A stretch of 64,000 bases of DNA from Actinopolymorpha alba DSM 45243. GTDB lineage: Bacteria > Actinomycetota > Actinomycetes > Propionibacteriales > Actinopolymorphaceae. Where the stretch lies: contig NZ_KB892752.1 of NCBI RefSeq assembly GCF_000373925.1, forward strand, positions 1 to 64,000, read 5' to 3'. The first letter of the stretch is position 1; every line of letters starts with the position of its first letter. The notes beneath the pieces are model-generated. The model made no database searches and had not been told where the DNA came from. It worked only from the letters and a program-made list of their open reading frames with translations. Both the position numbers and the translations under genes were made by a program. Shown here piece by piece: positions 10,196 to 28,354 of the stretch.

Positions 10196-11236
10196 ATGCG
10201 GCTGAAACTCGGCGCGGCCTTCGCGGTCGCGTTCGCTCTGCTGTTTGCTTCGTGCCAGGGTCCGTCCGCGGAATCAGAATCGGACCCGGGTAAACCGCAG
10301 GTGGTGGGCGGCTGCGGAGTCGGGCCGAAACTCGTGCCGACCTGCGGAGCCTGGTGGGGAGTGGCGGCGAATCCGCTGAGCGGTGAGACCTGGGACAGAG
10401 CGCTCGTCAATTTCGAGAGCCAGATCGGGCGCACGGTCAACATCGCGCACTTCTACCACCGGGCGGGCGAGCTTTTCCCGACCCCGAGCGAAATCGCCCG
10501 AGCTAACGAACCCGGCAAGAACCGCATGCTGCTGATCAACTACAAACCCGAGGCTGGTCGCAGCTGGTACGACGTTTCCCGTGGGTCGAGCAACGACGAA
10601 ATCGACCGGCTCGCGGCGCACATCAACGCCAACTTCACCAAACCCTTCTTCCTCACGGTGCACCACGAACCCGAGGACGAGGTGATCCAGACGCCGGGAT
10701 CCGGTTTCACCGCAAGCGACTACAAGGCGATGTACCGCCACGTCGTCGTACGTCTGCGCCAACGCGGCGTCAGGAACATCGTCTCCGTCATGAACTATAT
10801 GGGCCTGCCGAGTTGGGGATCCCAGCCGTGGTTCCAAGATCTTTACCCGGGAAATGATGTCGTTGACTGGATCGCGTACGACCCCTACATCTTCGGGAGC
10901 GGGTTGTACCGCGGTGGTGTCACCGACCTCATCAACCGGCGCTTCAGCTCCTATCCCAACTGGCCCGGCTTTTATCGCTGGGCGACGGGGTTCGCGCCCG
11001 GCAAACCGCTGATGCTCGCCGAGTGGGGTGTTTCGGAAGAGAGCGGGAACCCAGCCGCGAAGGCGACCTTCTTCAAACAGCTCGCCCAGGACGCGTCCGA
11101 CTGGCCACAGGTCAAGGCGTTCGTCTACTGGAACAGCCCTTCGGGCAGGACGGTCGGCGTCACCCGGGTCGACTCGTCGGCGGCGTCGCTGACGGCGTAC
11201 CGCCAGACGGGAAAGTCGCCGTACTTCAATCCGTGA
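10196..11236 (+). CDS. GH26-like glycoside hydrolase lipoprotein
   Basis: A predicted 346-residue lipoprotein. The signal peptide MRLKLGAAFAVAFALLFASC ends in a lipobox (FASC), so the mature protein should be tethered outside the membrane. The rest resembles family 26 glycoside hydrolases (beta-mannanase type). FFLTVHHEPEDE supplies the acid/base Glu after the usual H-H/N pair, and KPLMLAEWGVSEE near residue 290 supplies the nucleophile Glu. VDWIAYDPYIF also fits the fold. The ATG has GGGGGGAGG 6 bases upstream. Standing at the head of the polysaccharide locus, it may trim, turn over or release the polymer, as hydrolases do in other exopolysaccharide clusters. It is convergent with the flippase fusion. 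Confidence 0.8.
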   Translation: MRLKLGAAFAVAFALLFASCQGPSAESESDPGKPQVVGGCGVGPKLVPTCGAWWGVAANPLSGETWDRALVNFESQIGRTVNIAHFYHRAGELFPTPSEIARANEPGKNRMLLINYKPEAGRSWYDVSRGSSNDEIDRLAAHINANFTKPFFLTVHHEPEDEVIQTPGSGFTASDYKAMYRHVVVRLRQRGVRNIVSVMNYMGLPSWGSQPWFQDLYPGNDVVDWIAYDPYIFGSGLYRGGVTDLINRRFSSYPNWPGFYRWATGFAPGKPLMLAEWGVSEESGNPAAKATFFKQLAQDASDWPQVKAFVYWNSPSGRTVGVTRVDSSAASLTAYRQTGKSPYFNP

Positions 11237-11248
11237 GCCTCTTGCCGA

Positions 11249-14176
11249 TCAGCGTGGCGTGCGGACACAGGCGAAGAGGTGGCGTCCGTAGTTGTCGGCG
11301 TACGGCGGGATCGCGTCCTGGTCGGGGCCCAGGTCGATGATCTCGTCGAACGTCGTGTGGCAACGCAGGAAATTACCGATGTGCTGGGCGTTCCAGCCGG
11401 CAAGGGAGCGGGCGAACCACGCCTCGTGGTCCTGGCCGGTGTCCAGGAACAGCACCCGCGCGCTCACCCCGTCGAGTAGCCGGGCGAGCTCCTCGGCGGT
11501 CGTGCTGCCCCGACCGAGGACGAAATGGTGCAGCAGGCTGAAGCACGACACGACATCCCAGCGGTGACCCGTGTCCTGGGCGTTGCGGAGGAACTCCACC
11601 GCGTCGCCAACGCTGATCCGCTGCGGGTCGAGTCCGTAGACGGCCGCGCCGAGTCGTGGGGCGAGCGGGTCACGTTCGACCCCTTCCGCGGCGAAGCCAC
11701 GCCGGGCGAACTGTCGAACGAACCAGCCGTAGCAACTCGCCACATCGAGATAGCTGTGGCCGGCCCTCTCGATACCGAGCGTCGCGAGCTGCCGATTCAT
11801 GAGCTCCATCCGGTCGGTGCACCGGCGTACGGTGGTCCAGCCACGCTGGAGTTCGGGAGCGTCGAGGGGCTGGTAGAGCTCCTTCTTGCCGCCGATCCAG
11901 CTCATCTGTCCGAGCAGGTCCTGCAGCGGTGTCGTGACTGGCACCCGTTTGACCTTGACCTTCGCCGAGGGCGCCCCACGATGGGCGAGGATGGCGAGCC
12001 GATGGTGCCCGTCGAGTACCTGAAAGCAGTCGGAGTCGCGGATGGGGGCGACGAGAACGGGGTCTGAGGCCGTGCTCTGGCCGTTGCGCTGATCGGGCCG
12101 CCGTGGCGCCCCACCATTCGCCCGGACCTCATTCGTCCGGACCTCATTGGCGCGGACCTCATTGCCGCGGGCAAGGAAGGTGCGCGCCACCTCGACGATG
12201 CCGGCGTCGTCGGACGCCCAGAAGTACCGTCCGGTGAGGCGCACACAACGGCGGGCGTGTGCGCCGTACGCGGACTCGAGGATGGCCTCGCTCGTCGGGC
12301 CGGTGTCAGCACTCCCGGCGGCCAGCCGGAGCAGCGCGGCGTGCGGCCCGTGCGGGACCGGCGTCGACGCCCACAGCAGGTCGTCGAACTCCCGCGCGTA
12401 GTCGGCGACAGGTACGCCGTCCTGGGCACCCAGCAGCAGCCGGTCCAACGGAACCTCTGTCAAGCCGGGCTTGCGGAGCAGCAGGGTGGAGAGCGCGACC
12501 CGCAGCCGGTGGGGTAGGGGCAGGCGGCGCAGCCGAGCCACAGACTTGACGACGACCACGCGGGCCAGGCGCCGCACCTTCCGGCCAAGCGACACTGTGG
12601 GCAGGACCGACCGCAGCGCTGAGAGTTCCAGAAGGTGGCGGCCGCGCCAGAGCAGTGCGGCGTACGTGACACACATGAGCGCCAGCCACACCGCGATGAC
12701 GGGGAGCCTGTCAGGGAGGACGAGTTCGAGGAGGAGGGGTATGACGCCGAAGCAGAGGCCGGCACTTCCCGCCACCCACGCGGTGCCCGGACCCAACGAC
12801 ATGACGCCGAACGCGCGGCGTACCTGGATCATCGGCAACACGTTGCGTACGCCCAGCGCCGCCGCCCAGGCGACTGCCGCGCCGGTGATTCCCAGCCACG
12901 GAACGAGCAGGACGACCAGCCCGACGTCGACGACCAGCGCCAGCGCGTTGTTGACGAGGCTCTGCCGGCTGCGTCCGGCCATCAGCAGAACCACGTCCAC
13001 GGAACCGGTCGCGGTCGTTGCGAGCATGGTGATGGCCAGGATGACCACCGTCGCATGGCCCGCCGCGTAGCCACCACCGAACACCTGCAACAGCGCCGGC
13101 GCGGCCACGGCGCTGGTGAGGTAGATCGGCCAGGAGATCGCCATCAGCCAGGCCGTCGACGTCGCGAAGACCCGGCGAACCCCGGCCAGGTCGCCACGCG
13201 CGAACATCCCAGACAGCTGCGGCGCCAGGACCTGCTGGATGGCCTGGATACCAAGCTGCCCGAAGACGAGGAAGCGGGTCGCCGCCGTATAGACCGCAGC
13301 GTGTCTGGGTGTGAGCAGTGCGGCGACGAGCACGATGTCGGCTCGCTGCAGCGCGACCTGGCAGATCCGGCCGAAGGCCCGCGGGATGGTGAACGCCCAG
13401 AACTCCCGGGCCAGCGCGGCATGCGGACCAGCGCCGTCCGGACCAGCGCCGTCCGGACCAGCGCCGTTCAGGTCAGCGCGCTTCAGCGAGGCGACAATCG
13501 AGCGGTACCACCAGCTGACGCCGATCAGACCGAGGAAGTACGGCGCCACCCAGGCCACCGCGAGGGCGACCGGGCCAAGGCCGAGTGCCCACACAACAAG
13601 GACGCAGAGGATCTGGCCGGGTAGCCGGCCGAGCTTCTCCACAACGACGTTCGGCCGCATCGTGCCGTGCGCGCGGGTCGCCGCCAGGACGGTGTCGTAC
13701 GCCGATGCCACGGGCAGGGCGACGGCGAGCACCCGCAGCATCGCCGTCATCGTGGCGGGATCGGCGTCAGAGCTGGCCAGCGCGCCCAACCACGGCGCGA
13801 GGATCCAGACCGCGATGGCGGCGGCGAAACTCATCGCGATCACCGCGCGAAGAGCGATCCGGACGGTGGCGAGCGCGCCGGCCCGGCTTCCCTTGGCCAG
13901 CTGCCGCTGGATCGTGTGGGCGAGTCCGACGTCAGTGCCGAGTCCGGAGATCGCCGAGACGATGAGGAAGAACGACGTCGCGGCGAACAACGTACCGGCG
14001 ACGTCCTGCGGAAACCCGTTCGTGACAACGACGACGAGGGCGATGGTGGCCGCGCCACCCGCGAGGGTGCCCGCGAGGTTGAGGGTGCCGCTACGGGCCA
14101 GGCGCTGGAGTGAAGGACTTAGGGGTCGCGCGGATCGGGGCGCCGCGCCCCTATCCGCGCGACCTCTAACAGTCAC
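11249..14176 (-). CDS. Polysaccharide flippase fused to ParB-like and methyltransferase domains
   Basis: A 975-residue fusion. Residues about 1-520 form a MATE/Wzx-type flippase with some 12-14 hydrophobic helices (NLAGTLAGGAATIALVVVVT onward; VAPYFLGLIGVSWWY). A soluble linker follows, then a ParB/sulfiredoxin-like segment around DSDCFQVLDGHHRLAILAHRG. The C-terminus is a SAM methyltransferase (HSYLDVASCYGWFVRQFARRG, then WDVVSCFSLLHH). The flippase half should move undecaprenyl-linked repeat units across the membrane; the other domains face the cytoplasm and could modify or gate the substrate. Two in-frame 15-bp micro-repeats occur (GAGPD three times; NEVRA/T three times), and the first 20 codons lie on a palindromic repeat. 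It overlaps the upstream gene by 4 bases. Confidence 0.82.
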   Translation of the reverse strand: MTVRGRADRGAAPRSARPLSPSLQRLARSGTLNLAGTLAGGAATIALVVVVTNGFPQDVAGTLFAATSFFLIVSAISGLGTDVGLAHTIQRQLAKGSRAGALATVRIALRAVIAMSFAAAIAVWILAPWLGALASSDADPATMTAMLRVLAVALPVASAYDTVLAATRAHGTMRPNVVVEKLGRLPGQILCVLVVWALGLGPVALAVAWVAPYFLGLIGVSWWYRSIVASLKRADLNGAGPDGAGPDGAGPHAALAREFWAFTIPRAFGRICQVALQRADIVLVAALLTPRHAAVYTAATRFLVFGQLGIQAIQQVLAPQLSGMFARGDLAGVRRVFATSTAWLMAISWPIYLTSAVAAPALLQVFGGGYAAGHATVVILAITMLATTATGSVDVVLLMAGRSRQSLVNNALALVVDVGLVVLLVPWLGITGAAVAWAAALGVRNVLPMIQVRRAFGVMSLGPGTAWVAGSAGLCFGVIPLLLELVLPDRLPVIAVWLALMCVTYAALLWRGRHLLELSALRSVLPTVSLGRKVRRLARVVVVKSVARLRRLPLPHRLRVALSTLLLRKPGLTEVPLDRLLLGAQDGVPVADYAREFDDLLWASTPVPHGPHAALLRLAAGSADTGPTSEAILESAYGAHARRCVRLTGRYFWASDDAGIVEVARTFLARGNEVRANEVRTNEVRANGGAPRRPDQRNGQSTASDPVLVAPIRDSDCFQVLDGHHRLAILAHRGAPSAKVKVKRVPVTTPLQDLLGQMSWIGGKKELYQPLDAPELQRGWTTVRRCTDRMELMNRQLATLGIERAGHSYLDVASCYGWFVRQFARRGFAAEGVERDPLAPRLGAAVYGLDPQRISVGDAVEFLRNAQDTGHRWDVVSCFSLLHHFVLGRGSTTAEELARLLDGVSARVLFLDTGQDHEAWFARSLAGWNAQHIGNFLRCHTTFDEIIDLGPDQDAIPPYADNYGRHLFACVRTPR
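14121..14168. repeat. Palindromic repeat (GGTCGCGC family), full copy inside a gene start
   Basis: Arms of 22 bases pair with two mismatches: AGGGGTCGCGCGGAT plus GGGGCG on one side, CGCCCCT plus ATCCGCGCGACCTCT on the other, around CCG. It encodes residues 3-19 of the flippase fusion. A shortened copy is at 42268-42301 and a half copy at 28805-28828, so it is a dispersed element. Confidence 0.6.
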
Positions 14177-16104
14177 CGGCCCTCCGCGGAGCGCCGCCGG
14201 CCGTGCGGAGCGTCGCCGCCGCGGTCAGTGGGGTCGGCTCCGGTCGGGATCTCCAGGACGTATCCGGCTGCCCGCTGCGTGCCGTTGGACGGATCAAGGC
14301 GCCTGGATCGACGAGGTGTCAGGTCGGGGGGTAGTTCTGGCGAGTCGTCCCCTACCGGAGGCAGCTCACTGGTGGGGTTGGGGCCGGTCTGGCTGCCGGA
14401 GGCGTTGGTGGTTGAGGTCGCCTGGCTGGTGTCTGTCGTCCTCGCGCGCGGCGACCGGGATTCTGGCAGCGCGGACGAGAGCGGTGCAGCCTCGCTGCTG
14501 GCGGACGAACGCGTCGTGGTCGCCGTGCCGGCGGCCGCCGAACGCGTGGACGTCGCGGCGCCGCTCACAGAGGAACGACTGGTGCGCTCGTCGGCGTCCT
14601 GAGAGGGTCCCTGCCCACCTCCCCGGCCGGCACGGATGCCTTCGATCATGACGGCGCCGACCGGCATCGCCTGGACGCGTTCGAGTGCGGCCATCGCGGT
14701 CTCGAACTCCCCGCGGGTGGTCAGCTGCTCGGCCGCGACCAGCACCACCGCATCGGTGAGGGAGGCCAGCGCCTGACCGTCGGCAGAGGCCGCGCCCGGG
14801 CCGGCGATGATCACGTAGTCGTACCACTCGCGGAGCCGCTTGATGGTCGACCGCATCTGCGGGGACAGCAGTTGGTCCATCGTCTGCCGGTCGGCCTTTC
14901 CGAGCGGGAGGAGCACGAGGTTGTCTTCGGGCTGGACGAGTACGTGGCGCAGGTCGGCGCTGCCCGCGAGGAGTTCCGCCAGCCCTGGAAGGGATCCCGT
15001 GCCCGCGAGCAGCCGGGAGGCCTCGCCTACGGTGTCAACGACCACGACACTGAACCCCGCACGGGCGAGACCGGTGGCCAGGCCCGACGTCTCGGGAGCC
15101 GGCGAGATCTGCGGCGAGACGCTCGCGACCGCCAGCGCGATGGGTGGCGCGTCGACGGACGTCACGATCGCGGTGCGGATCTCACGATATGCCTCAGTGA
15201 GTTCGCGGACCCGGCCGCGCGCCGGTGCCGCCCGGCCACTGAACCGCGCGCCCTTGGGTACGACGCCGAGGACTCGTACGCCGGCGCGTTCGATCTCGGA
15301 CCGGTCGTGGATCCGGTTGTCAGTGCGGGCTCGGAGCAGGGCGAAGACGGCGGCGAGCAGGAGCCCACCCAAGGCCCCACCCGCGCCGAAGGCACCGGCC
15401 GTGGTGCCGCCCGCGGTCATGGGCAACGCGGCGGGGCTGATCACCTGGCCGGGTGAGGAGTCGGCGGCGGTGAGGGTGCTGACCTCGGTCTCGAGACTGG
15501 CGAGCTGGGACGCGAGGGCGCTCACGCGTTCTTCCAGATACGCACGGCGGGTCGCGCTGGCATCGTCGAGTTCGGCGGTGGCCTCACCGAGTGCCTTCTG
15601 GATGTCGGACTGCTGCTTGCGGATCCTCGCGAGCCTGGTGCTGACGACGGACTTCGCCCGGCTGGCGCGATAGCTGAGGTAGGACTCGGCGAAGGTCTGC
15701 GCGCCCGCGATCGCTGCGTCCCTGCTGCCGGAGGTGAACGAAATCTTGAGCACCTGCGTGTTGGTGGGGTTCTCCACCCCGACGGCCTGCCGGAGCTCGT
15801 CCGGGGTGAGGTCGGTCTTGAGCTTGTGGATCGCGAGTGCCGCCACGCCTTCGGTGCGGACCAGTTGGGATTCGGTCTCGAGGTTCATCAACTGCTCGCC
15901 GCGGCCATCAGGTGCGTACGGGTTGCCCTGAAGCGGGTTGACCAGGATCGAGGCCGTCGCGGTATAACTCACGCCCTGATAGAGCGCGAACGCGACACCT
16001 GCCGCGGCGCCCAGAACGCCTAGGGCGAGAAGCAGGATGAGGTGCCGGCGAAGAGCGTTCGTCGTGAACGTCGCAAGCGCAGACGTACCCTCGACGTCGC
16101 GCAT
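14173..16104 (-). CDS. Wzz-type chain-length protein with degenerate tyrosine-kinase domain
   Basis: A 643-residue polysaccharide co-polymerase. The N-terminal Wzz domain has a first membrane helix (LILLLALGVLGAAAGVAFAL), an extracytoplasmic coiled region with SYTATASILVNP and RIRKQQSDIQKALGE, and a second helix (TTAGAFGAGGALGGLLLAAV). A cytoplasmic BY-kinase-like domain follows (LTEAYREIRTAI, VVVVDTVGEASRLL, YDYVIIAGPGAASADGQALA). Where active kinases carry a Walker A with GK[ST], this one reads SPQISPAPETSG, so ATP binding is doubtful. The C-terminal 120 residues are a low-complexity Ser/Thr/Arg tail without a Tyr cluster. The ATG has GGGGGG 7 bases upstream. It heads the operon with the flippase fusion and probably sets chain length structurally. 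Confidence 0.85.
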   Translation of the reverse strand: MRDVEGTSALATFTTNALRRHLILLLALGVLGAAAGVAFALYQGVSYTATASILVNPLQGNPYAPDGRGEQLMNLETESQLVRTEGVAALAIHKLKTDLTPDELRQAVGVENPTNTQVLKISFTSGSRDAAIAGAQTFAESYLSYRASRAKSVVSTRLARIRKQQSDIQKALGEATAELDDASATRRAYLEERVSALASQLASLETEVSTLTAADSSPGQVISPAALPMTAGGTTAGAFGAGGALGGLLLAAVFALLRARTDNRIHDRSEIERAGVRVLGVVPKGARFSGRAAPARGRVRELTEAYREIRTAIVTSVDAPPIALAVASVSPQISPAPETSGLATGLARAGFSVVVVDTVGEASRLLAGTGSLPGLAELLAGSADLRHVLVQPEDNLVLLPLGKADRQTMDQLLSPQMRSTIKRLREWYDYVIIAGPGAASADGQALASLTDAVVLVAAEQLTTRGEFETAMAALERVQAMPVGAVMIEGIRAGRGGGQGPSQDADERTSRSSVSGAATSTRSAAAGTATTTRSSASSEAAPLSSALPESRSPRARTTDTSQATSTTNASGSQTGPNPTSELPPVGDDSPELPPDLTPRRSRRLDPSNGTQRAAGYVLEIPTGADPTDRGGDAPHGRRRSAEGR

Positions 16105-16335
16105 GGATTATCCCCCCAACCGGTTCCAGCGCTGATCACCAGACGTTAGACCAGAATGTGACCTGACGCCGACCTTTTTCCATCATTATGTGCGCTGTTT
16201 TTCCTGCGTGAGTGGGAGACTGGGTCGATCCCGGTCGTGCCGAGCAACGATTGTGCATCAGGCCTGAAAGCACAGGCGATTCGTCACTACTTTGCACGCA
16301 TCGGATCACCGTGAGTCATGATCGTTGGGGGGACT
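16105..16335. promoter_or_regulatory. Divergent promoter region of the polysaccharide locus
   Basis: These 230 bases separate the Wzz/flippase operon from pssD/pssE and are clearly richer in A/T than their surroundings (for example TTTTTCCATCATTATG). Both flanking genes carry the same GTTGGGGGGA just before their start codons. No operator can be named, but both operons should start here. Confidence 0.5.
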
Positions 16336-16827
16336 ATGAAAGGAAATGGTGGTGGTGGACTCGACCTTGCTCCGCCACGACGCCTTTTACTCGTCGGATC
16401 GAGTGGAGGGCATCTCGCGCAGCTACTCGCGTTGAAGCCATGGTGGGAGACCCGGGACCGGACCTGGGTCACCTTTGCGACCCAGGACGCCAAATCCCGA
16501 CTCCGTGAAGAGAGCGTGATCTGGGCGCATTTCCCCACCACGAGAAACATCCCGAACCTGCTGCGTAACCTGATCCTTGCGATCGGTGTACTCCGCCGGA
16601 CCCAGCCCGACGTCGTCGTCTCCACCGGCGCGGCCGTGGCTTTCCCGTTCTTCCTCGTCGCCCGCGCGATGGGCATCCGGACCGTCTATCTCGAGGTCTA
16701 CGACCGGCTCGACACCCGTACGCTCACTGGCCGGCTGTGCCGACCGCTGTCTTCGTTGTTCTGCGTGCAGTGGGAGGAACAAGCCAGCCTCTACAAAGGC
16801 GCCCGCGTGATCGGGACCATCCTGTGA
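16336..16827 (+). CDS. PssD/Alg14-like glycosyltransferase membrane subunit
   Basis: A 163-residue Alg14-type protein. RLLLVGSSGGHLAQLLAL is the family signature, followed by TWVTFATQDAKSRL, a hydrophobic helix (NLILAIGVLRRTQPDVVVSTGAAVAFPFFLVARAMG) and IRTVYLEVYDRLDTRTLTGRL. In bacterial exopolysaccharide clusters (PssD, Cps14F) this subunit anchors the catalytic PssE/Alg13-like partner to the membrane, and together they add the second sugar to the lipid-linked primer. The partner follows with a 4-base overlap, which supports this role. The ATG at 16336 is chosen for its adjacent GGGGGG. Confidence 0.85.
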   Translation: MKGNGGGGLDLAPPRRLLLVGSSGGHLAQLLALKPWWETRDRTWVTFATQDAKSRLREESVIWAHFPTTRNIPNLLRNLILAIGVLRRTQPDVVVSTGAAVAFPFFLVARAMGIRTVYLEVYDRLDTRTLTGRLCRPLSSLFCVQWEEQASLYKGARVIGTIL

Positions 16828-17348
16828 GCGGGCTGGTAGGTGGACGTGTCGACCTTCTGGCTCTGGTCGGGACCGACTATCACCCATTCCAACGACTCGT
16901 GCGATGGGTGGACGGCTGGAGCCTGCAGAGACCAGCGGTCGGATGCCTGATCCAGTACGGCACCGCCGCACCGCCCCGCCACGCGGGCGGGACGGCCTAC
17001 GCCGAACACGACGAGGTCGGTGACTGGATGGACAGCGCCGGCATTCTGGTCTGCCATGCCGGTCCGTCGACCATCCTGGAGGCGCGCCGTCGTGGGCACC
17101 GCCCGATCGTCATACCGCGGCGGGCGCATTGGGGTGAGCATGTCGACGATCACCAGCACCGCTTCGCCAGCAGGCTCGCGGAATTGGGGCACGTGCTGAC
17201 AGCCACGTCGCAACAGGAGTTCGAAGCGCTCCTCGACCAAGCGGTCGACGATCCCGAACTCGTCCGCATCCCACCGGTCGAGCGAGAATCCGGTACGGAG
17301 GAGGCGGTCGAGAGGTTCGGGCACCTGGTGTCCGACCTCTTCCGTTGA
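16824..17348 (+). CDS. PssE/Alg13-like glycosyltransferase catalytic subunit
   Basis: A 174-residue partner of the preceding gene, from a GTG that overlaps its stop (GTGA). The sequence resembles the C-terminal half of family 28 transferases: VDLLALVGTDYHPFQRLVRW at the start, then the donor-binding ILVCHAGPSTILEARRRGHRPIVIPRRAHWGEHVDDHQ, and an end with RLAELGHVLTA. The His-Ala-Gly-Pro-Ser-Thr loop and following Glu are the nucleotide-sugar site of MurG/Alg13 enzymes. UDP-sugar transfer to an undecaprenyl-diphosphate sugar is likely. The sugar is unknown. Confidence 0.85.
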   Translation: MSGLVGGRVDLLALVGTDYHPFQRLVRWVDGWSLQRPAVGCLIQYGTAAPPRHAGGTAYAEHDEVGDWMDSAGILVCHAGPSTILEARRRGHRPIVIPRRAHWGEHVDDHQHRFASRLAELGHVLTATSQQEFEALLDQAVDDPELVRIPPVERESGTEEAVERFGHLVSDLFR

Positions 17349-17373
17349 GAGGGCGTACGAACGGAACCATCGG

Positions 17374-17409
17374 AGGCGGGGCACCTGGACTCAACCGGGT
17401 GCCCCGCCT
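17374..17409. terminator. Hairpin terminator after pssE-like gene
   Basis: A perfect 12-bp stem (AGGCGGGGCACC / GGTGCCCCGCCT) with a 12-base loop lies 25 bases after the stop, directly before the CACGTATACGTG palindrome at 17413. Both could end transcription from either side, since the glycosyltransferase at 17471 converges here. Confidence 0.75.
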
Positions 17410-17412
17410 GCG

Positions 17413-17442
17413 CTGAATGATCACGTATACGTGATCATTCAG
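17413..17442. repeat. CACGTATACGTG palindromic element, copy 1
   Basis: A perfect 30-base palindrome centred on CACGTATACGTG. The flanking sequence reads CTGAATGAT on the left and ATCATTCAG on the right. It stands between two convergent genes, right after a GC hairpin. Related copies occur at 42160-42246 and 53895-53974. Confidence 0.75.
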
Positions 17443-17470
17443 GCAGCTTCGCCGCCGGTCACACGATCCC

Positions 17471-18433
17471 TCAGATGCCGCGCCCGACCGAATGGGCGAG
17501 CCGCAGCGCGCGGTCCGCGGAAACCAACCGCATCGCGACCACGATCGCGACGTACGCGCGTTGTTCCCGCCAGTTCAGCCGCAGGGTCTGGAACGCCCAG
17601 CGCACGGCGGTCCGGCTCTCGCCCAGCGCGGCGTACGCGAACGCCTTCCGGCCCTGCAGCCGCGCCAGCCCACGGGAGTCGGCGCTGAGTATCGCGTGCT
17701 TGGCGAGGCCGTAGTCGATCGCCTCGATGATGGTGCGCCAGCGGGTGGAGAAGTACGACTGGCGCCCCCAGAGCACCCGGACCAGCGGGAGTTCGACGAC
17801 AGCGATGGGCCCCGCCTGGGCGGCGCGCAGGATCCAGTCGAAATCCTCGCCGTAGCTGCCGGGGATGTCCTCGTCGACCAGGCCGATGCGGTCTCGGAGC
17901 GCGCTGGTGCGTACGACGACGGTGGACGGGTGCGCCTCCATGACCCGGCGGCGGGCGAGCTGGGCGAGGTCGAGATCCGCGGCCTTCGGCACCCGGCGTA
18001 CGACCTTGTCGTCGTACCGCACCTCGATACCTGACACGACGACATCGGCGCCAGTGCGGCTCAGGTGCTCGACCTGGCGGTCCAGCTTCTCCGGGAGCCA
18101 CTCGTCGTCGTCATCGCAGAAGGCGATGAGCTCTCCTTGTGCCGCGTCGATCCCGGCGTTCCGGGCGCCGGCGAGTCCTGGCGTTCGTGGGTTGGGAATC
18201 GCGACGAGCGTACGCTCGCCCTTCTCGTCAGCGCCGTCACCAGCACCGGCGTTCGCGGACGCGACGAGCGAATCGTCCACCGGTGCCTGGTCGAAGACCA
18301 CGACGCATTCGATCGGACCCGCGTAGGTCTGGCGGCGGACCGCTTCGATCGCTTGGCGGAGGAGTTCGGGGCGGTTCCTGGTGGCGATCACCACTGACAC
18401 CAGGGGCAGCGGGTCCTGGGCCATTGCGTTCAC
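17471..18433 (-). CDS. Family 2 glycosyltransferase
   Basis: A 320-residue cytoplasmic GT-A enzyme. LPLVSVVIATRNRPELLRQA opens the nucleotide-binding domain, PGLAGARNAGIDAAQGELIAF leads into the metal site FCDDDDEWLPEKL, and later GEDFDWILRAAQAGPIAVVE supplies the catalytic ED pair. It should add one sugar to the growing lipid-linked unit. The GTG start at 18433 overlaps the stop of the CDP-alcohol transferase gene by 4 bases, so it is the last gene of the minus-strand operon running from 23400. Its product has no transmembrane helix. Donor and linkage cannot be told. Confidence 0.88.
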   Translation of the reverse strand: MNAMAQDPLPLVSVVIATRNRPELLRQAIEAVRRQTYAGPIECVVVFDQAPVDDSLVASANAGAGDGADEKGERTLVAIPNPRTPGLAGARNAGIDAAQGELIAFCDDDDEWLPEKLDRQVEHLSRTGADVVVSGIEVRYDDKVVRRVPKAADLDLAQLARRRVMEAHPSTVVVRTSALRDRIGLVDEDIPGSYGEDFDWILRAAQAGPIAVVELPLVRVLWGRQSYFSTRWRTIIEAIDYGLAKHAILSADSRGLARLQGRKAFAYAALGESRTAVRWAFQTLRLNWREQRAYVAIVVAMRLVSADRALRLAHSVGRGI

Positions 18434-20585: not shown

Positions 20586-21919
20586 CGCGGGACCAGGAGG
20601 TCGTCGAGAAGGCGCAACAACCAGGCGGTCCGGGCGTGCAGTGGCGCGCCTTCGACGAGATCGCAGGCGAGAACGTAGCGGCGGGCGAGCTCCACAAGAT
20701 AGCTGACCATCACGGCGGTCGGATGGTTGCCGCCGAGCAGGTCCGAACCGCCGTCCCACCGCTGGCGGACGAGCCGCTCGGCCACGCGTTCGCCCCTCGC
20801 CCGCAGCACGGTGTGAAGGCGGTAGTGGGCCAGATCGAAGCCGAGGGGTACGCCGGTCGCGAAGCGCTCGAAGTCCCACAGCAGGACCCGGTCGCCGTCC
20901 CAGGCCATGTTCCATGGCGTCCAGTCCCCGTGCCAGGTGCCGACGGTGACGCAGCGGTCGCCGTACCTCGCCTCGGCCTCCGCGACGATGCGCGCGAACG
21001 CCGCCGCCCGGGCACTGTCCTGCAGCGAGCCGACCGCGGCGCGGGCCGCTCGCCAGGCGGGACTGACGGCGAGCGGGTGCCGGGACGTGCCGAGCCGCAC
21101 CGCGAGTTCGTGCATCGCGCCGGTCGGGATGGTCCGTCGCTGCCGGCCGCCCGACGATGGACGAACCGGCGACAGTACGAGGATTTCGAGGTCGCGCCAC
21201 CGCCCGTGGTGCAGCACCCTTGGCACCTTCAGCCGGCTCGCGGCGGGGGTCTCAGAGGTGGCGGAGGTGGCAGACCAATAGTCGCGGAGGGCCTCGGACT
21301 CTCCACGTACCAGCGCGGTCGTCGACGGTGAGGTGCCCACCTTCACGAAGGCGAGCGTCGTGCCGTCCGGGGTGAGCACCTGCAAGACGGGCTTGCGGTT
21401 GGCGCGCGGCGGCCCGACCCCGATGCTGACCACCACGTCTTCACCGAGGATCCGCCCGAGGTGGGTTTCCAGCGAGTCGACCGCCGCGCCGTGCGGGACG
21501 GTCACCCGCAGGCGGTACGGCATCATCCGGGCGAGGAGCTGCGTGCCGGCGGGCTGTCGTACGCACGCGGACAGCACGGACCGGACGGCGCGTTCGACGA
21601 ACGACAGGCCCTGGCTGTATCTCCGTAGGGCTTCGGCGGCGACCGCGGGAGTGTGCGTCGGCAGCGCAAGGCGAGGTTGACGGGGATGGGGAAGGATGAG
21701 GAACTCCCGGAGGACGGCGCGCTCCTCGTCGGGTTCCTCGGTCGCGGATTCCCCGACCGTGGGTTCGCTGGTCGCGGATTCCCCGACCCGGGGTTCGCTG
21801 GTCGCGGGTTCCCTGGCGGCGTCCCGGCCGATCGTGCTGTGGGCGGGGGCCGGCCAGAGCAGGCGGGCCGTGTCGTTGAGGGCGTCCAGGGTGTTCTGGG
21901 CGCCGGACCCGCCGGTCAT
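20582..21919 (-). CDS. APH-fold kinase of unknown substrate
   Basis: A 445-residue protein with an aminoglycoside-phosphotransferase-type kinase domain in its C-terminal two thirds. The catalytic loop reads TWHGDWTPWNMAWDGDRVLL and the metal Asp is in LLWDFERFATGVPLGFDLAH. The N-lobe contains KPVLQVLTPDGTTLAFVKVG. The first 150 residues hold an acidic repeat region (SEPRVGESATSEPTVGESAT) and are not recognised. It sits between the polymerase-like and Wzz genes, with ATGA overlaps at both ends, so phosphorylation of a sugar, a polyprenyl-linked glycan or a polymer precursor is more plausible than antibiotic resistance. That is inference from position. Confidence 0.78.
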   Translation of the reverse strand: MTGGSGAQNTLDALNDTARLLWPAPAHSTIGRDAAREPATSEPRVGESATSEPTVGESATEEPDEERAVLREFLILPHPRQPRLALPTHTPAVAAEALRRYSQGLSFVERAVRSVLSACVRQPAGTQLLARMMPYRLRVTVPHGAAVDSLETHLGRILGEDVVVSIGVGPPRANRKPVLQVLTPDGTTLAFVKVGTSPSTTALVRGESEALRDYWSATSATSETPAASRLKVPRVLHHGRWRDLEILVLSPVRPSSGGRQRRTIPTGAMHELAVRLGTSRHPLAVSPAWRAARAAVGSLQDSARAAAFARIVAEAEARYGDRCVTVGTWHGDWTPWNMAWDGDRVLLWDFERFATGVPLGFDLAHYRLHTVLRARGERVAERLVRQRWDGGSDLLGGNHPTAVMVSYLVELARRYVLACDLVEGAPLHARTAWLLRLLDDLLVPR

Positions 21920-23400
21920 CGGGCTCCACCCACCTGTCCACCCACCTGTCCACCCACCTGTCCACCCACCTGTCCAGCCACCGTGGCTGGCTCCTCGCGC
22001 GGGTCGGAGCCGCCGCGCGCCAGCAGCCCCAGCGCGATCATGACCGTGACCATCGGGGCGCCGAGGGTGTCGTAGACGAAGAGCTCGATGGAGAAGAACA
22101 CAAGGACACAACAGCCCGCGATCGCCAGAGGTGACGGGTCGCGCCAGTGGGCGAAGAACCTCCGGGCGAAGAACGCCACGAACAACCCCAGCCCGAGCAG
22201 GCCCTGGGAGAAGACCACGAGCCAGATCTGGCCCTGCGTACCCAGGGGCGGCACGCCACAGGCCGGGCAGTCGGGGGTGGATCCGCCGGCGATCGAGGCG
22301 AAGCTGCCCTTCACGTCGCGGGTCGAGCCGTATCCGAGGATCGGCGAGCCCTCGACGACGTTCCGCACGGTCTCGGTGGCGAGTTGGGCGCGGCGGTCGT
22401 TCGAGTGGGGAGCGTCGAGCCGCTGCTGCACGATCGTGCTGAGCGGGCTGGCGACGAACGCGACCGCACCCAGGACGGCCGCCACGGCGAGTGCCTGGAC
22501 AAGCCAGTAACGGCCGAGCAGCGCCAGGCGTACCGCCACGTAGCAGATGCCGACACCGAGGGCGAGCCACAGACCGCGGTTGAGGGAGTAGACCGTCGGC
22601 ACGAGGCCGGCGAAGAGGACGAGCGGCGCCACCCGGCGTCGCCACCCGGCGGTCCGGCCACACCAGCCCAGCAGGAAGAACGGCAGGTAGAGCGAGAAGT
22701 TCGCGCCCCAGGAGTTGGCGAAGGAGAACGGTGCGATCGGCCGCGCCTCGGCGTACCCCAGCACGACCTGGATATCCGCGGCGGCCGGATGGATCATGCG
22801 GTTGACGAACTCGTTCGTGGCGATCCCGTGCGGCAGCAGCAACTCCATCAGAGAGCGGAACTCAAAGCCGGGCGCGGCCACACCGAGCAGCCCGCCGCAG
22901 ACGGTGACCACGAACATGAAGCCGAGCAACCTCAGCACCCGGGTCGTGGGCAGGGCGCGGTGACTGGCGTTCAGAACGTACAGCAGGACGATCGTCGCGG
23001 CGACGTACATCCCGGCCCGGTAGCCGAAGACCATCAGCCGGTTCGCGCCGCCGCCACCGGGCACGCCTCCCGGCGCGTCGCTCTCGAGCAGAGTTGCGCT
23101 CGCCGCCACGCAGAGCAGGAAGAGCACCCAGAGGCCGAAGCCACGCGGCACCCGGAGCGGTCGGTGCCGCAGAAGCTCGAACGCCATCGGAATGGCCAGG
23201 AGGACGAAGGCGAACACGCCAAGACCAAGCGCCCACCAGAGCGGGAAGCCGAGGAAGAGCACACTGAGGGGCCAGCCAGGGCCGAGCAGTCGAGGCCGGG
23301 GAGCGGCGGCCGGGGGAGAAGCCGGTGTCGTGGGATGAACGGCTGGCCGCCTACCCGTCGTCGACATGGCAGGCAGGCTCGGCGTATCTACGGCCCGCAC
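21916..23400 (-). CDS. O-antigen ligase/Wzy polymerase-like membrane protein
   Basis: A 494-residue multi-spanning protein with about 11 hydrophobic helices (GWPLSVLFLGFPLWWALGLG near the start; later GLVPTVYSLNRGLWLALGVG). The motif SLNRGLWLAL and the extracellular loop before it fit the Wzy_C/O-antigen ligase domain, which polymerises repeat units or joins the polymer to an acceptor outside the membrane. The GTG at 23400 is preferred because GGGGAGGG stands 7 bases upstream; the frame opens further back. The C-terminus is the 12-bp repeat tail. It is the first gene of the minus-strand operon and diverges from the beta-propeller gene. Confidence 0.82.
   Translation of the reverse strand: MRAVDTPSLPAMSTTGRRPAVHPTTPASPPAAAPRPRLLGPGWPLSVLFLGFPLWWALGLGVFAFVLLAIPMAFELLRHRPLRVPRGFGLWVLFLLCVAASATLLESDAPGGVPGGGGANRLMVFGYRAGMYVAATIVLLYVLNASHRALPTTRVLRLLGFMFVVTVCGGLLGVAAPGFEFRSLMELLLPHGIATNEFVNRMIHPAAADIQVVLGYAEARPIAPFSFANSWGANFSLYLPFFLLGWCGRTAGWRRRVAPLVLFAGLVPTVYSLNRGLWLALGVGICYVAVRLALLGRYWLVQALAVAAVLGAVAFVASPLSTIVQQRLDAPHSNDRRAQLATETVRNVVEGSPILGYGSTRDVKGSFASIAGGSTPDCPACGVPPLGTQGQIWLVVFSQGLLGLGLFVAFFARRFFAHWRDPSPLAIAGCCVLVFFSIELFVYDTLGAPMVTVMIALGLLARGGSDPREEPATVAGQVGGQVGGQVGGQVGGAR
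21926..21973. repeat. Tandem repeat, 12 bp x 4, inside a gene
   Basis: Four exact copies of CCACCCACCTGT. Read on the minus strand within the polymerase-like gene they encode a short Gly-Gln-Val-Gly tail repeat. The 12-base unit keeps the frame, so copy number can vary without breaking the protein. Confidence 0.9.
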
Positions 23401-23703
23401 CGGGTCGCCCTCCCCTTCGGCCCTCACAAGGCCGCTGACTCCGCTGCACGGGGCGTGCTCAGGCTGTGCTCGCGCACCAGAACCGCGCGACGTGGGCCCC
23501 CGGTTTCGTCGAGGATACGAGAGATCGTGGGACCCGGAACGACAATTCGCGATTTAGGTCGGGTCATCTTGCACCGAGGGTACGCCGAGGGCAAACTATG
23601 GCCTACGCTTTCGCGTTCCAACCTCTACTACCACCTACCCCCCAAAACTTGCTTGCTTCGGATCCTGAGGGGGTCGGTTGTGTCCTGTTCCTGGGGGGAA
23701 CCC
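23401..23703. promoter_or_regulatory. Divergent promoter region, ligase operon versus secreted propeller operon
   Basis: About 300 bases hold no credible gene and should contain both start sites. A repeated CCGAGGG pair (in CACCGAGGGTACGCCGAGGG near 23573-23592) is the only local motif that stands out. No operator is recognised. Confidence 0.4.
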
Positions 23704-26700
23704 TTGTTACTGCGCCGGATCGGCGTGGCTCTCGCCTTGGTGTGTGCGTTGGTGCCGGCGGCCTTGGCCGCGACCCCGGCATCGGCTGTCCAGACGCCGC
23801 AGCCGAAGGTCGTGAGCGACGATCCCGTCAACTGGACGCCGCACGTGCTCGATGGCCGGGTGAAGGCAATCGTGCAGGCTGGCGACACAGTCATCCTCGG
23901 TGGTGCCTTCACACAGGTCAGCTCCGCTGACGGCGCCACCATCCTCAACCGCTCCAACATCGTCGCCTTCAACGCGAAGACCGGAGCCATCAGCACCACC
24001 TTCGCGCCGCAGGTCGACGGCGAGGTGACCGCGCTCGTCGTCTCCGACGACGGCCGGTCCGTCTTCGCCGGCGGCTTCTTCAACACCGTCAACTCCCAGC
24101 CGGCCAAGAGCCTGGCCAAGATCGACCTCTCGAACGGCCAGCTGACGCCGGAGTTCATCACGCCGGCCATGGACGGCCGGGTCAAGGACCTCAAGCTCGC
24201 CGCCGGCCGGCTCTGGGTGGCCGGACACTTCGGCTACGTCGGGGGCAAGAAGCAGCCGGCCCTCGTCACGCTCAACCCCACGACCGGTGCGTTCGACACG
24301 TTCAACCGCGTTGTCTTCGACGGACCGCTCAACGACTCCGTCCTGCAGGTGCTGAAGATGGACATCACGCCTGACGGCTCGCGGTTGGTGGCGATCGGCA
24401 ACTTCTCCACCGTGCAGGGGCAGCCCCGCGTGCGGCTCGCCGTCCTCGACCTCACCGGTAGCGAGGCGCAGGTCGCCGACTGGCAGACCGACTTCTTCGC
24501 GGCTGCCTGCTCGGCGTCGTTCGACACTTACATGCGAGACCTCGACATCTCACCGGACGGGTCCTACTTCGTCGTCTCCACCACGGGTGCCTACAGGGCA
24601 CCACCGTCGCCGTGTGACACGACCAGTCGCTGGGAGCTCGGCGCGCGCGGGTCGGGTCTGTCGGCCACCTGGGTCGACTACACCGGCGGCGACACGACGT
24701 ACGCCGTTGCGATCACCGGCACCGCGGTCTACGTCGGCGGGCACATGCGCTGGCAGAACAACCCCTCGGGAAACAACCGCGCCGCGGCTGGCGCGGTGAG
24801 CCGGGAGGGCATCGCGGCGCTCGATCCGGCGACCGGCCTGCCCCTGCGTTGGAACCCCGGCCGCACCCGCGGCGTGGGTGTCTTCGACATGCTCGCGACA
24901 CCCGACGGGCTCTGGGTCGGCAGCGACACTGACCGGATCGGCAACTGGGAGTACCACGCGCGGATCGCGTACCTCCCGGTCGCCGGCGGCACTGAGGTCC
25001 CGAACCCCTCGGTCGCCGCGCTGCCGGGCGACGTCCACCTCGTTCCGTCTTCGGGCACCAGCCCGGTGAAGCGGTCATTCGACGGCACCACCGTCGGGTC
25101 GACTGGTGCGGTGCCGAGCGGTGGCATCAGCTGGCAGAACGTCAAGCAGGGCTTCATGCTCGGCGACCAGCTCTACTCCGGCTGGTCTGATGGCACGTTC
25201 ACGCGGCGCGGGTTCGACGGTACGACGTACGACGCGCCGATGACCATCAACACCGCCGACCAGCTGGTCGCGGACTCGGTCTGGCACCAGGACGTCGCCA
25301 ACCTCACGGGGATGTTCTGGTCGGGCGGTCGGCTCTACTACACCCGCAGCGGCGCGAGTGCGCTTTATTACCGCTACTTCACGGTGGAGAGCGATGTCGT
25401 CGGAGCCCAGCGCTTCACCGCGAGCGCCAGCATCACCGACGTGGACTTCTCGCGGGTGTCGGGCATGTTCGTCGTCGGGGACAAGCTCTACTGGGCGTCG
25501 TCCGCCGACGGCAACCTCCGCCGGGTCGACTTCGTGGACGGCAAGCCGGTCGCCGGCACCGTGCGGGTCCTGAGCGGCCCCACCGTCGACGGCAACGACT
25601 GGCGTTCGCGAGCGATGTACGTCTTCACCCGCGCGACCCCGCCGCCCAACCAGCCTCCGGTCGCCACCATCACCAACACCTGCACCAACCTCGCCTGCGA
25701 GTTCGGTTCGGCGGGTTCGTACGACCCCGACGGCACGATCGCGTCGTACGCCTGGGACTTCGGTGACGGAGCGACCGCGAGCGGACCCACGGCCTCGCAC
25801 ACCTATCCGGCGAGCGGCACCTATCCGGTCCGGCTCACCGTGACCGACGACGACGGCGCTAAGACCAGCACCGAGGTCCCGGTGACGGTCCGCCGTCCCA
25901 ACCAGGCGCCCACCGCGTCGTTCACCGTCGAGTGTGACGATCGCGCCTGCTCGGTGAACGGCAGCGGGTCGAAGGACCCCGATGGCACGATCGCGTCGTA
26001 CGCCTGGAACTTCGGTGACGGAGCGACCGGGAGCGGAGCCACCGCGTCCCACACCTACGCCGCCGACGGTGCCTACACGGTCCGTCTGACGGTCACCGAC
26101 AACGAAGGCGCGATCGGACAGATCGAACGCCGGATCTCCGTTGCCGCCAGCGGCACGTCCGTGCGGTTCGTCGCCCAAGCCGGCGCCAACGGCAACCTGC
26201 TGACGCACAAGGTGACCATCCCGACCAGCGTCGCGGCCGGTGACCGGTTGCTGCTCCTGCTGACGATCAACTCGACGACACCGACGATCTCGGCGCCGAG
26301 CGGTGTGACCGGATGGTCAGGTGCGGGGGCGAAGTCGACATCCAGCATGGTGAGCCGGGCCTGGCAGAAGAAGGCCTCGGCCACCGACGCCGGCGCCACT
26401 GTCAACGTCACCTTGTCGGCGTACGCGAAGGGAGACCTCACACTGGTCGCGTATCGCGGTCCCAACGTCATCCTTCGCACGTCCACGTCGGCGGCCGAAA
26501 CCACGTCGCAGACCACGCACAAGACCCCGACTCTGACCGGCGACGCCTCGTCATGGTTGGTGAGCTACTGGGGCGAGAAGTCGTCGTCCGCGGCCGGGCT
26601 GACCGCTCCGACCGGCCAGACCGTACGCCGCACCGGCACCGGCACCGGCAGCGGCCGGATCGCAGCGCTCCTGACCGACAGCGGGCGTACGCTCGGCACC

Positions 26701-26790
26701 GGCGGCACGGCCGGCGGCCTGACCGCCACCGCCGACACCGCCAGCGCGCAGGCCACGATGTGGTCGTTCCTGATCGGACCCACGCCATGA
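23704..26790 (+). CDS. Secreted beta-propeller protein with two PKD domains
   Basis: A large secreted protein (about 1028 residues). A signal peptide (LLRRIGVALALVCALVPAAL then ATPASA) is followed by a beta-propeller-like half with repeats such as GRVKAIVQAGDTVILGGAFT and GEVTALVVSDDGRSVFAGGF. Two PKD domains follow at about residues 650-820, each with DPDGTIASYAWDFGDGATAS-like cores and HTYxxxGxYxVRLTVTD ends. The last 210 residues are an unrecognised beta-rich domain ending in MWSFLIGPTP. Such proteins bind or organise surface glycans. The TTG at 23704 has GGGGGG 5 bases before it; GTG at 23680 with GAGGGGG is an alternative. It is coupled to the next two genes. Confidence 0.85.
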   Translation: MLLRRIGVALALVCALVPAALAATPASAVQTPQPKVVSDDPVNWTPHVLDGRVKAIVQAGDTVILGGAFTQVSSADGATILNRSNIVAFNAKTGAISTTFAPQVDGEVTALVVSDDGRSVFAGGFFNTVNSQPAKSLAKIDLSNGQLTPEFITPAMDGRVKDLKLAAGRLWVAGHFGYVGGKKQPALVTLNPTTGAFDTFNRVVFDGPLNDSVLQVLKMDITPDGSRLVAIGNFSTVQGQPRVRLAVLDLTGSEAQVADWQTDFFAAACSASFDTYMRDLDISPDGSYFVVSTTGAYRAPPSPCDTTSRWELGARGSGLSATWVDYTGGDTTYAVAITGTAVYVGGHMRWQNNPSGNNRAAAGAVSREGIAALDPATGLPLRWNPGRTRGVGVFDMLATPDGLWVGSDTDRIGNWEYHARIAYLPVAGGTEVPNPSVAALPGDVHLVPSSGTSPVKRSFDGTTVGSTGAVPSGGISWQNVKQGFMLGDQLYSGWSDGTFTRRGFDGTTYDAPMTINTADQLVADSVWHQDVANLTGMFWSGGRLYYTRSGASALYYRYFTVESDVVGAQRFTASASITDVDFSRVSGMFVVGDKLYWASSADGNLRRVDFVDGKPVAGTVRVLSGPTVDGNDWRSRAMYVFTRATPPPNQPPVATITNTCTNLACEFGSAGSYDPDGTIASYAWDFGDGATASGPTASHTYPASGTYPVRLTVTDDDGAKTSTEVPVTVRRPNQAPTASFTVECDDRACSVNGSGSKDPDGTIASYAWNFGDGATGSGATASHTYAADGAYTVRLTVTDNEGAIGQIERRISVAASGTSVRFVAQAGANGNLLTHKVTIPTSVAAGDRLLLLLTINSTTPTISAPSGVTGWSGAGAKSTSSMVSRAWQKKASATDAGATVNVTLSAYAKGDLTLVAYRGPNVILRTSTSAAETTSQTTHKTPTLTGDASSWLVSYWGEKSSSAAGLTAPTGQTVRRTGTGTGSGRIAALLTDSGRTLGTGGTAGGLTATADTASAQATMWSFLIGPTP

Positions 26791-27446
26791 GGGCCCGCGG
26801 GCGCGCCAGCCGGGCGCTCCTGCTCGCCGTGCTGGTGGCGCTGAGCCTCGGGGCATGCGCGAAGGCCGGCGCCGGGGATGACGGTGCGGCGGTCAGCACG
26901 CCAGCTGGTAAGGACGCGGCTGGGCGGTCAGCTGGGTCTGCTGACCAGACCGCCACCGCTGGCAAGCCCGCCGCCACGGAGCAGCCGGGCGCGGGTGGTG
27001 AGCCGACGCGACGTTCGCCAAAGGAGTTCGCCGAGCAACCGCTGGAGCAGCAGAGTTCGGCGAAGGCCCGCCTGGTCGGACTCGACGCCGGGCGTGGCAA
27101 GGGTGTGGAGACGGTGACCTTCACCTTCGCCGACACCAAGGTCCTGCCGAGCTACCGCGTGGCGTACGTTGACGCCATCCGCGCGCACCCGGAGGATGAC
27201 CCAATTCCGATGGAGGGCAAGGCCTTCCTGGAGGTCAGCTTCTCCCTGACCAACCCCAACACCAGGGGCCGGTTGGCGGTGCCACCTGATCTGGCGCCGG
27301 ACCAGCCCCTGGTCAAGTCGATCCTGCTGGCCCGTAACCTCGCGGGCAGTCTGGGCTTCGGGGTCGGGCTGGAGAAGCGCTCGGCCTTTCGGGTGCGTGA
27401 GCTGCACAACCCGACGCGTTTGATAGTGGAGGTACGCGCCAAGTGA
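26787..27446 (+). CDS. AMIN-like domain lipoprotein
   Basis: A 219-residue lipoprotein. The signal ALLLAVLVALSLGACAK ends in a lipobox (LGAC). A flexible Ala/Gly/Pro linker leads to an AMIN-like beta domain of about 120 residues (RLVGLDAGRGKGVETVTFTF, KAFLEVSFSLTNPNTRG, SLGFGVGLEKRSAFRVRELH, RLIVEVRA). AMIN-like domains bind cell-wall glycans or help localise envelope proteins. The ATG overlaps the propeller stop (ATGA) and its stop overlaps the sulfotransferase start. It probably anchors or guides the secreted partner at the surface. Confidence 0.8.
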   Translation: MRARGRASRALLLAVLVALSLGACAKAGAGDDGAAVSTPAGKDAAGRSAGSADQTATAGKPAATEQPGAGGEPTRRSPKEFAEQPLEQQSSAKARLVGLDAGRGKGVETVTFTFADTKVLPSYRVAYVDAIRAHPEDDPIPMEGKAFLEVSFSLTNPNTRGRLAVPPDLAPDQPLVKSILLARNLAGSLGFGVGLEKRSAFRVRELHNPTRLIVEVRAK

Positions 27447-28354
27447 GTGGGACGGGTCCGGCCGGCACAGGTGTGACGAGGCTACGCTCGGCCGCACCGC
27501 CGTGGATGAAGCGATCCGGACGGGTGGTGAGCCGGACCCTGGGGCGCTACACCTCAGGTGGTCGGCTGGTGCCGAGCTTCCTCCTGGCCGGAGGGCAGCG
27601 GTGTGGCACCACCTCGTTGCACCGCGCGCTCATCGCACACCCTGTCGTCGCCGGGCCCGTCCTTCACAAAGGCGTCAACTACTTCGATCTCAACTACGAC
27701 CGTGGCCCGGCCTGGTATCGCGGCCACTTTCCGCTCCTGTCGACCGCCCGCCGGCGAGCCGGTAACTGGTCAGTCGGCTCCGGCGAACCCCAGGCCATGG
27801 AATCCACGGGCTATTACCTCTACCACCCGCTGGCGTTGCCGCGGATCGCCCGCGACCTGCCGGGCGTACGCCTCATCGTCATGCTGCGCGACCCGGTCGA
27901 ACGGGCCTACTCGGCGTACAAGCACGCGGTCGCTCGGGGCTTCGAGACCGAGTCTTTCGAGCGGGCTCAGGAGTTGGAGCCCGAACGCCTCGCGGGTGAG
28001 GAGGAGCGGCTGGCCTCCGACCCGAGCTACCAGAGCCACGCGCACCGCCACTTTGCCTATGTCGAGCGGGGACGGTACTCCGAGCAGCTGCGGCGGGTCT
28101 TCGACCTCCTCGGCCGCGATCGGGTGCACGTTCTCGAAAGCGAGGAGTTCTTTACGAAGCCGGAGGACTCCTACGCCGAGGCGCTCGAATTCCTCGGACT
28201 CCCGAGCTGGCTGCCGTCGTCGTTCGACCAACACAACGCCCGGCCTAGCGAGCCTATGCCGGGTTCGGTCCGGAGGCGGCTCGAGGAGCATTTCCAGCCG
28301 TACGACGAGGAGCTGACGAACCTGCTGGGCCGCACCCCCACCTGGCGTCGCTGA
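27443..28354 (+). CDS. PAPS-dependent sulfotransferase
   Basis: A 303-residue sulfotransferase, which moves a sulfuryl group from PAPS to a hydroxyl. The 5'-phosphosulfate loop is FLLAGGQRCGTTSLHRAL, the 3'-phosphate site is LIVMLRDPVERAYSAYKHAV, and a later RYSEQLRRVF and VLESEEFF match the heparan-type (Sulfotransfer_1/3) enzymes. The catalytic His/Glu region near HKGVNYFD is also typical. As the last gene of the plus-strand operon with the propeller and AMIN-like lipoprotein (GTGA overlap), it suggests that the exported polysaccharide, or a lipid, is sulfated. No PAPS synthesis genes are in view. Confidence 0.87.
   Translation: MSGTGPAGTGVTRLRSAAPPWMKRSGRVVSRTLGRYTSGGRLVPSFLLAGGQRCGTTSLHRALIAHPVVAGPVLHKGVNYFDLNYDRGPAWYRGHFPLLSTARRRAGNWSVGSGEPQAMESTGYYLYHPLALPRIARDLPGVRLIVMLRDPVERAYSAYKHAVARGFETESFERAQELEPERLAGEEERLASDPSYQSHAHRHFAYVERGRYSEQLRRVFDLLGRDRVHVLESEEFFTKPEDSYAEALEFLGLPSWLPSSFDQHNARPSEPMPGSVRRRLEEHFQPYDEELTNLLGRTPTWRR

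Follow-up and report, generated by a model that had tools for sequence, protein, structure and literature searches.

A wps-1-type Wzx/Wzy gene cluster between pth and mfd in Actinopolymorpha alba, widespread in actinobacteria and probably directing synthesis of a sulfated polysaccharide

The closest described system is the wps-1 cluster of Actinoplanes missouriensis, which comprises genes for a GT2 enzyme, two sulfotransferases, a GT26 enzyme, a DUF4262 protein, a GH26 protein, a methyltransferase, Wzx, a kinase-like protein, Wzy and Wzz (PMC13390465, published in 2026). Single deletions of the flippase, the sulfotransferase WpsH, the kinase, Wzy or Wzz resulted in squashed sporangia, and deletion of the adjacent sulfate adenylyltransferase/APS kinase caused a severe sporangium defect, which the authors found "unexpected". 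A sulfated polymer was proposed for wps-1 without being demonstrated. In the same paper, bacterial sulfated polysaccharides were attributed exclusively to cyanobacteria and wps-1 was treated as a sporangium locus (PMC13390465). Since the terms 'mfd', 'conserved', 'homolog' and 'ortholog' are absent from its main text, a broad distribution apparently went unremarked there. Apart from this paper, the open-access literature on Wzy and sulfotransferases in actinobacteria, Nocardioides and Kribbella yielded nothing on the locus.

The window analyzed here is a stretch of 64,000 nucleotides of the 8.0-Mb genome of Actinopolymorpha alba DSM 45243. The locus spans window positions 10163-28354 and is flanked by pth (9337-9921) and mfd (29239-32871). 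Gene models were obtained with a simple home-made gene caller, families were assigned by Pfam and NCBIfam profile searches against the products, and the naming of proteins is homology-based. An earlier note on this DNA had counted 12 genes, although its own list holds 13, which is the number given here, preceded by a stem-loop:

10062..10100, no strand: 15-nt stem-loop without T-run, between pth and the cluster
10163..11236 (start 10163 or 10196), plus strand: GH26-like lipoprotein (Pfam GH26 17.8 bits, below cut-off; lipobox FASC)
11249..14176, minus strand: Wzx-type flippase (residues ~1-530) fused to a ParB-like and SAM-methyltransferase half (~536-975) (hydrophobic segments; Methyltransf_23; AF2 model and fold search)
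14173..16104, minus strand: Wzz chain-length protein with a degenerate BY-kinase-like domain (Wzz 24.8 bits; eps_fam E = 1.7e-15)
16318..16827, plus strand: PssD-type glycosyltransferase subunit (NF041549 113.5 bits, cut-off 110)
16824..17348, plus strand: PssE-type glycosyltransferase subunit (NF041548 60.6 bits, below the cut-off of 120; Glyco_tran_28_C 41.5 bits)
17471..18433, minus strand: GT2 glycosyltransferase (PF00535 E = 2e-25; 43% identity to WpsA)
18430..19236, minus strand: CDP-alcohol phosphotransferase, an optional component (PF01066, CDP-OH_P_transf, 45.6 bits)
19233..20585, minus strand: second Wzz-type protein (PF02706 30.3 bits)
20582..21919, minus strand: APH-fold small-molecule kinase, orthologue of WpsI (invariant residues; AF2 model; PDB fold matches)
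21916..23427 (start 23262 or 23427), minus strand: Wzy-type polymerase or O-antigen-ligase-like protein, orthologue of WpsJ (Wzy_C 25.5 bits, cut-off 31.7)
23680..26790, plus strand: secreted beta-propeller and PKD protein with a C-terminal domain of ~210 residues (PKD_4 152 bits; Rax2 propeller)
26787..27446, plus strand: AMIN-like lipoprotein (PF24837 67 bits; lipobox LGAC)
27443..28354, plus strand: heparan-sulfate-type sulfotransferase, orthologue of WpsH (Sulfotransfer_3 42.8 bits)

All products named in the earlier note were recovered at their positions. According to the coordinates, four-base overlaps connect the genes for Wzy, the kinase, the second Wzz, the CDP-alcohol transferase and the GT2 enzyme in a single minus-strand row. 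They also occur in the minus-strand row of the Wzz-kinase and flippase genes and in the plus-strand row of the PKD, AMIN and sulfotransferase genes, and such overlaps between neighbors suggest operons. Hairpin terminators had been reported near both ends of the block. A stem-loop is indeed located after pth and a short one before mfd (29138-29156), but a consensus scan found 10 terminator-like sites compared with 5.9 ± 3.0 in shuffled sequences, which is not clearly above chance, and terminators at both ends of the locus were not retained.

The locus was compared with L169 (~0.78 Mb), which was matched to the published wps-1 by gene content and order and comes from a genome that we take to be that of A. 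missouriensis. BLASTP identities were 55% for the sulfotransferase, 43% for GT2, 40% for Wzy, 37.5% for the kinase, 36% for the flippase and 30% for Wzz. Orthologues of the flippase, sulfotransferase, APH-fold kinase, Wzy and Wzz are encoded together in the window (BLASTP E 6e-30 to 1e-101, and synteny). The kinase gene adjoins Wzy as in wps-1, and the sulfotransferase gene lies in a separate plus-strand row in Actinopolymorpha and beside the kinase gene in most other orders. The suggestion that this gene combination was undescribed has to be abandoned, as the same core is present in wps-1 and was knocked out there (PMC13390465). Judged by homology and synteny, the window locus belongs to the type of cluster reported in 2026 and has a layout specific to its lineage. 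It supplies an almost full complement of genes for producing and exporting a surface polysaccharide that is probably sulfated.

With a probability of about 0.8, we regard the block as the Actinopolymorpha version of a wps-1-type Wzx/Wzy cluster and propose the following mechanism. The repeat would be started on a lipid carrier by an initiating sugar-phosphate transferase whose gene lies elsewhere in the genome, and PssD/PssE and the GT2 enzyme would extend it. Sulfotransferase, APH-fold kinase and methyltransferase would then decorate the repeat in the cytoplasm, and the flippase half of the fused protein would move it across the membrane. The Wzy-type protein would polymerize the repeats, and the two Wzz proteins would determine the length of the chains. 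The polymer would be trimmed or remodeled by the GH26-like lipoprotein and bound at the cell surface by the propeller/PKD and AMIN proteins. We infer the order of these steps, the sugar identities, the sulfate on the polymer and its surface retention; gene identity and the conserved grouping are directly observed, as are the conserved catalytic residues and the sulfate-activation genes within the loci of some relatives.

Comparison across related genomes revealed the same genes grouped throughout the class, which confirms that the block is no chance assembly. Among 395 class genomes, the kinase marker was found in 69 and the sulfotransferase marker in 72. Both occurred in 65 genomes (the window genome excluded), where they were ≤5 kb apart in 60 and ≤20 kb apart on one contig in 64. 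In an uneven sample of 80 named loci, fetched with the Wzy protein alone as the best-scoring of 550, we found the sulfotransferase in 73, the kinase and the Wzz-kinase in 71 each, the flippase in 69, the PKD protein in 66, the GH26-like protein in 61, GT2 in 49 and the methyltransferase in 30. The hosts include Kribbella, Nocardioides, Arthrobacter, Paenarthrobacter, Mumia, Serinicoccus, Phycicoccus, Nonomuraea, Actinomadura, Planomonospora, Modestobacter and Microbacterium. The cluster is also present in loci of Actinomadura madurae (L116), A. pelletieri (L108) and A. latina (L120), some of which are agents of mycetoma. In a phylum-wide sample the kinase marker was rarer (17/296), yet it reached other classes, and the cluster was present in five of six such loci examined. 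A distant kinase match in another class (L177) had no surrounding cluster, and weak matches to the kinase marker alone are therefore no proof of the locus.

A flippase, a Wzy-type polymerase and Wzz are encoded together, as in Wzx/Wzy-dependent pathways; the Wzy_C match falls below the Pfam cut-off, but the product is an orthologue of WpsJ. Nocardioides-like genomes have Wzy and Wzz combined in a single open reading frame of 710-750 residues (L039 4339-6570, L041 3689-5824, L045 2067-4319). It is conceivable, if unlikely, that the locus makes a cell-wall-linked secondary polymer and that the Wzy_C protein is a ligase attaching the glycan to wall or protein rather than a polymerase. The Pfam family is that of O-antigen ligases, and the lipoproteins and the PKD protein point to the surface. 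However, two Wzz-type proteins and a flippase fit polymerization, and the cluster has no other Wzy candidate.

The Wzz match of the first Wzz protein (14173-16104) lies just below the Pfam cut-off (24.8 versus 25.5 bits). BY-kinases of the Wzc/CapB type are recognized by a Walker A P-loop and a tyrosine-rich tail; the window protein has neither, its tail containing one tyrosine. The classic Walker A pattern occurred in none of 138 long members of this Wzz-kinase family, and a loose pattern in six, leaving 132 without it. Since the motif is missing across nearly the whole family, the kinase-like half is degenerate, pseudokinase-like and probably inactive as a tyrosine kinase, and active tyrosine-kinase control of chain length was ruled out as a candidate. 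Among four related proteins elsewhere, two retain the Walker A motif and a third has SEGRS.

The sulfotransferase has the 5'-phosphosulfate loop and the 3'-phosphate-binding Arg and Ser of PAPS-dependent carbohydrate sulfotransferases (sequence and PDB profile), and the respective residues R53/G55/T56/T57 and R149/S157 were invariant in 26 of 26 sequences. Among solved structures, the enzyme is nearest to the bacterial sulfotransferase 3rnl and then to the heparan sulfate 3-O- and N-sulfotransferases (3-OST/NDST, E ~1e-27). Wzx/Wzy-dependent synthesis requires an initiating phosphoglycosyl transferase, whose gene is not always part of the cluster. No initiating transferase and no sulfate-activation gene was found within the window locus. 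Elsewhere in the same genome, however, there is an APS kinase (contig 84), CysD/CysN beside an initiating transferase (contig 47), and four initiating transferases in all, so that supply of the sulfate donor is available. Counted within the contig 47 region 62000-81900 (L067), CysN lies at 3985-5235, CysD at 5235-6155 and a small initiating sugar-phosphate transferase at 8365-9042, and a similar grouping occurs in another genome (G007, locus L061). Kribbella-like loci go on to encode an initiating sugar-phosphate transferase, a CysQ-type member of the inositol-monophosphatase family, CysD, CysN, PssD and PssE, and the respective genomes encode an APS kinase a few tens of kb from the locus. Some loci of other orders also have CysD/CysN within the cluster or next to it, and likewise the initiating transferase. 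The names CysQ, CysD and CysN are based on Pfam families and reading of the sequences.

The presence of sulfate-activation genes inside relatives' loci supports sulfation. It also offers a reason why the adjacent sulfate-activation gene is required in A. missouriensis, since several lineages have such genes as part of the locus. The earlier view of a Wzx/Wzy-type, probably sulfated polymer is upheld, since the sulfotransferase is conserved alongside Wzy and the kinase, its PAPS residues are kept, and CysQ-CysD-CysN are present in the loci of some relatives. We consider it quite improbable that the product is an ordinary unsulfated Wzx/Wzy exopolysaccharide and that the sulfotransferase-like protein acts on another molecule. 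Families with this fold have many substrates, and a lipid or a protein could be the actual target of the enzyme. The window locus itself is devoid of sulfate-activation genes, and sulfate on the polymer is a proposal both here and in A. missouriensis. Against this stand the carbohydrate sulfotransferases among the closest solved relatives, the invariant PAPS-binding residues, the sulfotransferase genes in 73 of the best 80 of 550 Wzy-fetched loci and the CysQ/CysD/CysN genes embedded in several relatives' loci. Moreover, sporangia of A. missouriensis were disturbed by both the sulfotransferase and the sulfate-activation knockouts (PMC13390465).

The APH fold of the kinase was not detected by Pfam. 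In its AlphaFold2 model (pLDDT 87), the fold was confirmed by Foldseek and VIA-align, with matches in the PDB to APH, fructosamine-3-kinase (FN3K) and choline kinases. K193, E207, HGD 330-332, N337 and D349 were invariant in 27 sequences, and the protein combines this fold with the catalytic HGDxxxxN ... D residues. One locus of another actinobacterial class (L174) contains two different APH-fold kinase copies a few kb apart. The CDP-alcohol transferase was missing from five of six close relatives and present in four of the best 80 of 550 Wzy-fetched loci, and by this distribution it is an optional extra rather than core. A phospho-alcohol decoration pathway combining it with the kinase is weakened, as the transferase is rare and the kinase nearly constant.

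The gene at 11249-14176 had been described as a flippase. This holds for the N-terminal half of the 975-residue product, which has 10 hydrophobic segments, but the C-terminal half had been overlooked. It comprises a SAM-methyltransferase domain (Methyltransf_23; AF2 model and fold search) and a DGHHR motif that we take to be ParB-like. The fusion was kept in six of six relatives examined from two genera (the same genus and its sister genus), and flippase and methyltransferase are separate neighboring genes in Nocardioides-like genomes (L039-L041) and in Streptosporangiales (L069-L071). An RCC1-repeat lipoprotein gene adjoins the flippase or methyltransferase gene in Kribbella-like genomes (L043 7858-9159) and in most Actinomadura loci. 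The top structural rank of the methyltransferase half was WbdD (PDB 4azs; Z 16.6 over 200 residues, 18% identity), with other methyltransferases tied within ~1 Z unit.

The genes for lipoproteins and for the secreted PKD protein suggest that the polymer may be surface-anchored. In the GH26-like protein, the acid/base-like E169 and the nucleophile-like E287 were invariant in 11 sequences. Its Pfam score is 17.8 bits (cut-off 20.2), and it is 23% identical to WpsE, which has been called GH26 (PMC13390465). In the sister genus (L037), this gene is absent from the corresponding position. The ~210-residue C-terminal domain of the PKD protein (window 26146-26790), which may bind the polymer, is found again in large secreted proteins encoded next to the cluster of Nocardioides-like genomes (L040, L041, L046).

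The layout of the block is the same in the genus and its sister genus, and it adjoins pth or mfd wherever the flanks were read. In several families, mfd lies ≤22 kb from the cluster in 22 of the 35 carriers with both on one contig; by our own estimate, random placement in a 5-Mb genome would give ~1%. In other carriers the cluster is flanked by pth. We infer that the pth-mfd site of the cluster is old, and the comparison suggests a locus that is widespread, probably old in actinobacteria and often near mfd. Many exopolysaccharide loci are horizontally acquired, strain-specific islands, and in this one glycosyltransferase content and gene order differ among orders, but such an origin is very unlikely given the shared pth-mfd place in same-genus genomes with readable flanks and in a second genus, the proximity to mfd in several families and one large family in which 176 of 201 genomes have the kinase marker.

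The cluster is common to many unrelated actinobacteria, including ones not known for sporangia, and the role of the polymer is therefore probably older and more general than sporangia. This distribution contrasts with the view of wps-1 as a sporangium locus (PMC13390465). A more far-reaching and doubtful idea is that the locus makes an ancient, general actinobacterial surface glycan with sulfate and phosphate, perhaps methylphosphate, groups that the sulfotransferase, the kinase and a methyltransferase resembling WbdD would add. The sporangial role in Actinoplanes would then be a late specialization, because the locus is also present in Nocardioides, Kribbella, Arthrobacter, Microbacterium and other actinobacterial classes. 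Sulfation is directly testable in several culturable genera, and the sulfotransferases named here may serve for making sulfated glycans.

Among known systems, wps-1 resembles the window locus most, sharing an orthologous flippase, heparan-sulfate-type sulfotransferase, kinase-like protein, Wzy, Wzz and GT2 enzyme as well as a GH26 protein; it has a sulfate-activation gene next door and lies ~21 kb from mfd. In contrast to wps-1, PssD/PssE replaces the GT26 (WecG) enzyme in the window, the flippase forms one protein with a longer methyltransferase half, the sulfotransferase is in a separate plus-strand row, and a second Wzz, the CDP-alcohol transferase and the PKD and AMIN proteins are extra, while a second sulfotransferase of the WpsB type is absent. 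New with respect to wps-1 are how broadly the cluster is distributed and how often it lies near mfd, along with the sulfate-activation genes embedded in some loci and the degenerate Wzz-kinase. WbdD is a kinase-methyltransferase that caps O-antigen chains. The WbdD of E. coli O-antigen is similar in that a kinase and a methyltransferase act on a polysaccharide, its structural rank for the methyltransferase half being tied with others, but the window kinase is a separate gene product with an APH fold and capping is putative. The synechan cluster of Synechocystis, a cyanobacterial system, is reported to make a sulfated exopolysaccharide and to include sulfotransferase and Wzx genes (PMC8205485). 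Sulfated capsular polysaccharides with a gene cluster are likewise reported for Vibrio sp. KMM 8419 and for Cobetia marina KMM 1449 (PMC11641403, PMC11766843), which are marine Gram-negative bacteria, unlike the host of the window locus.
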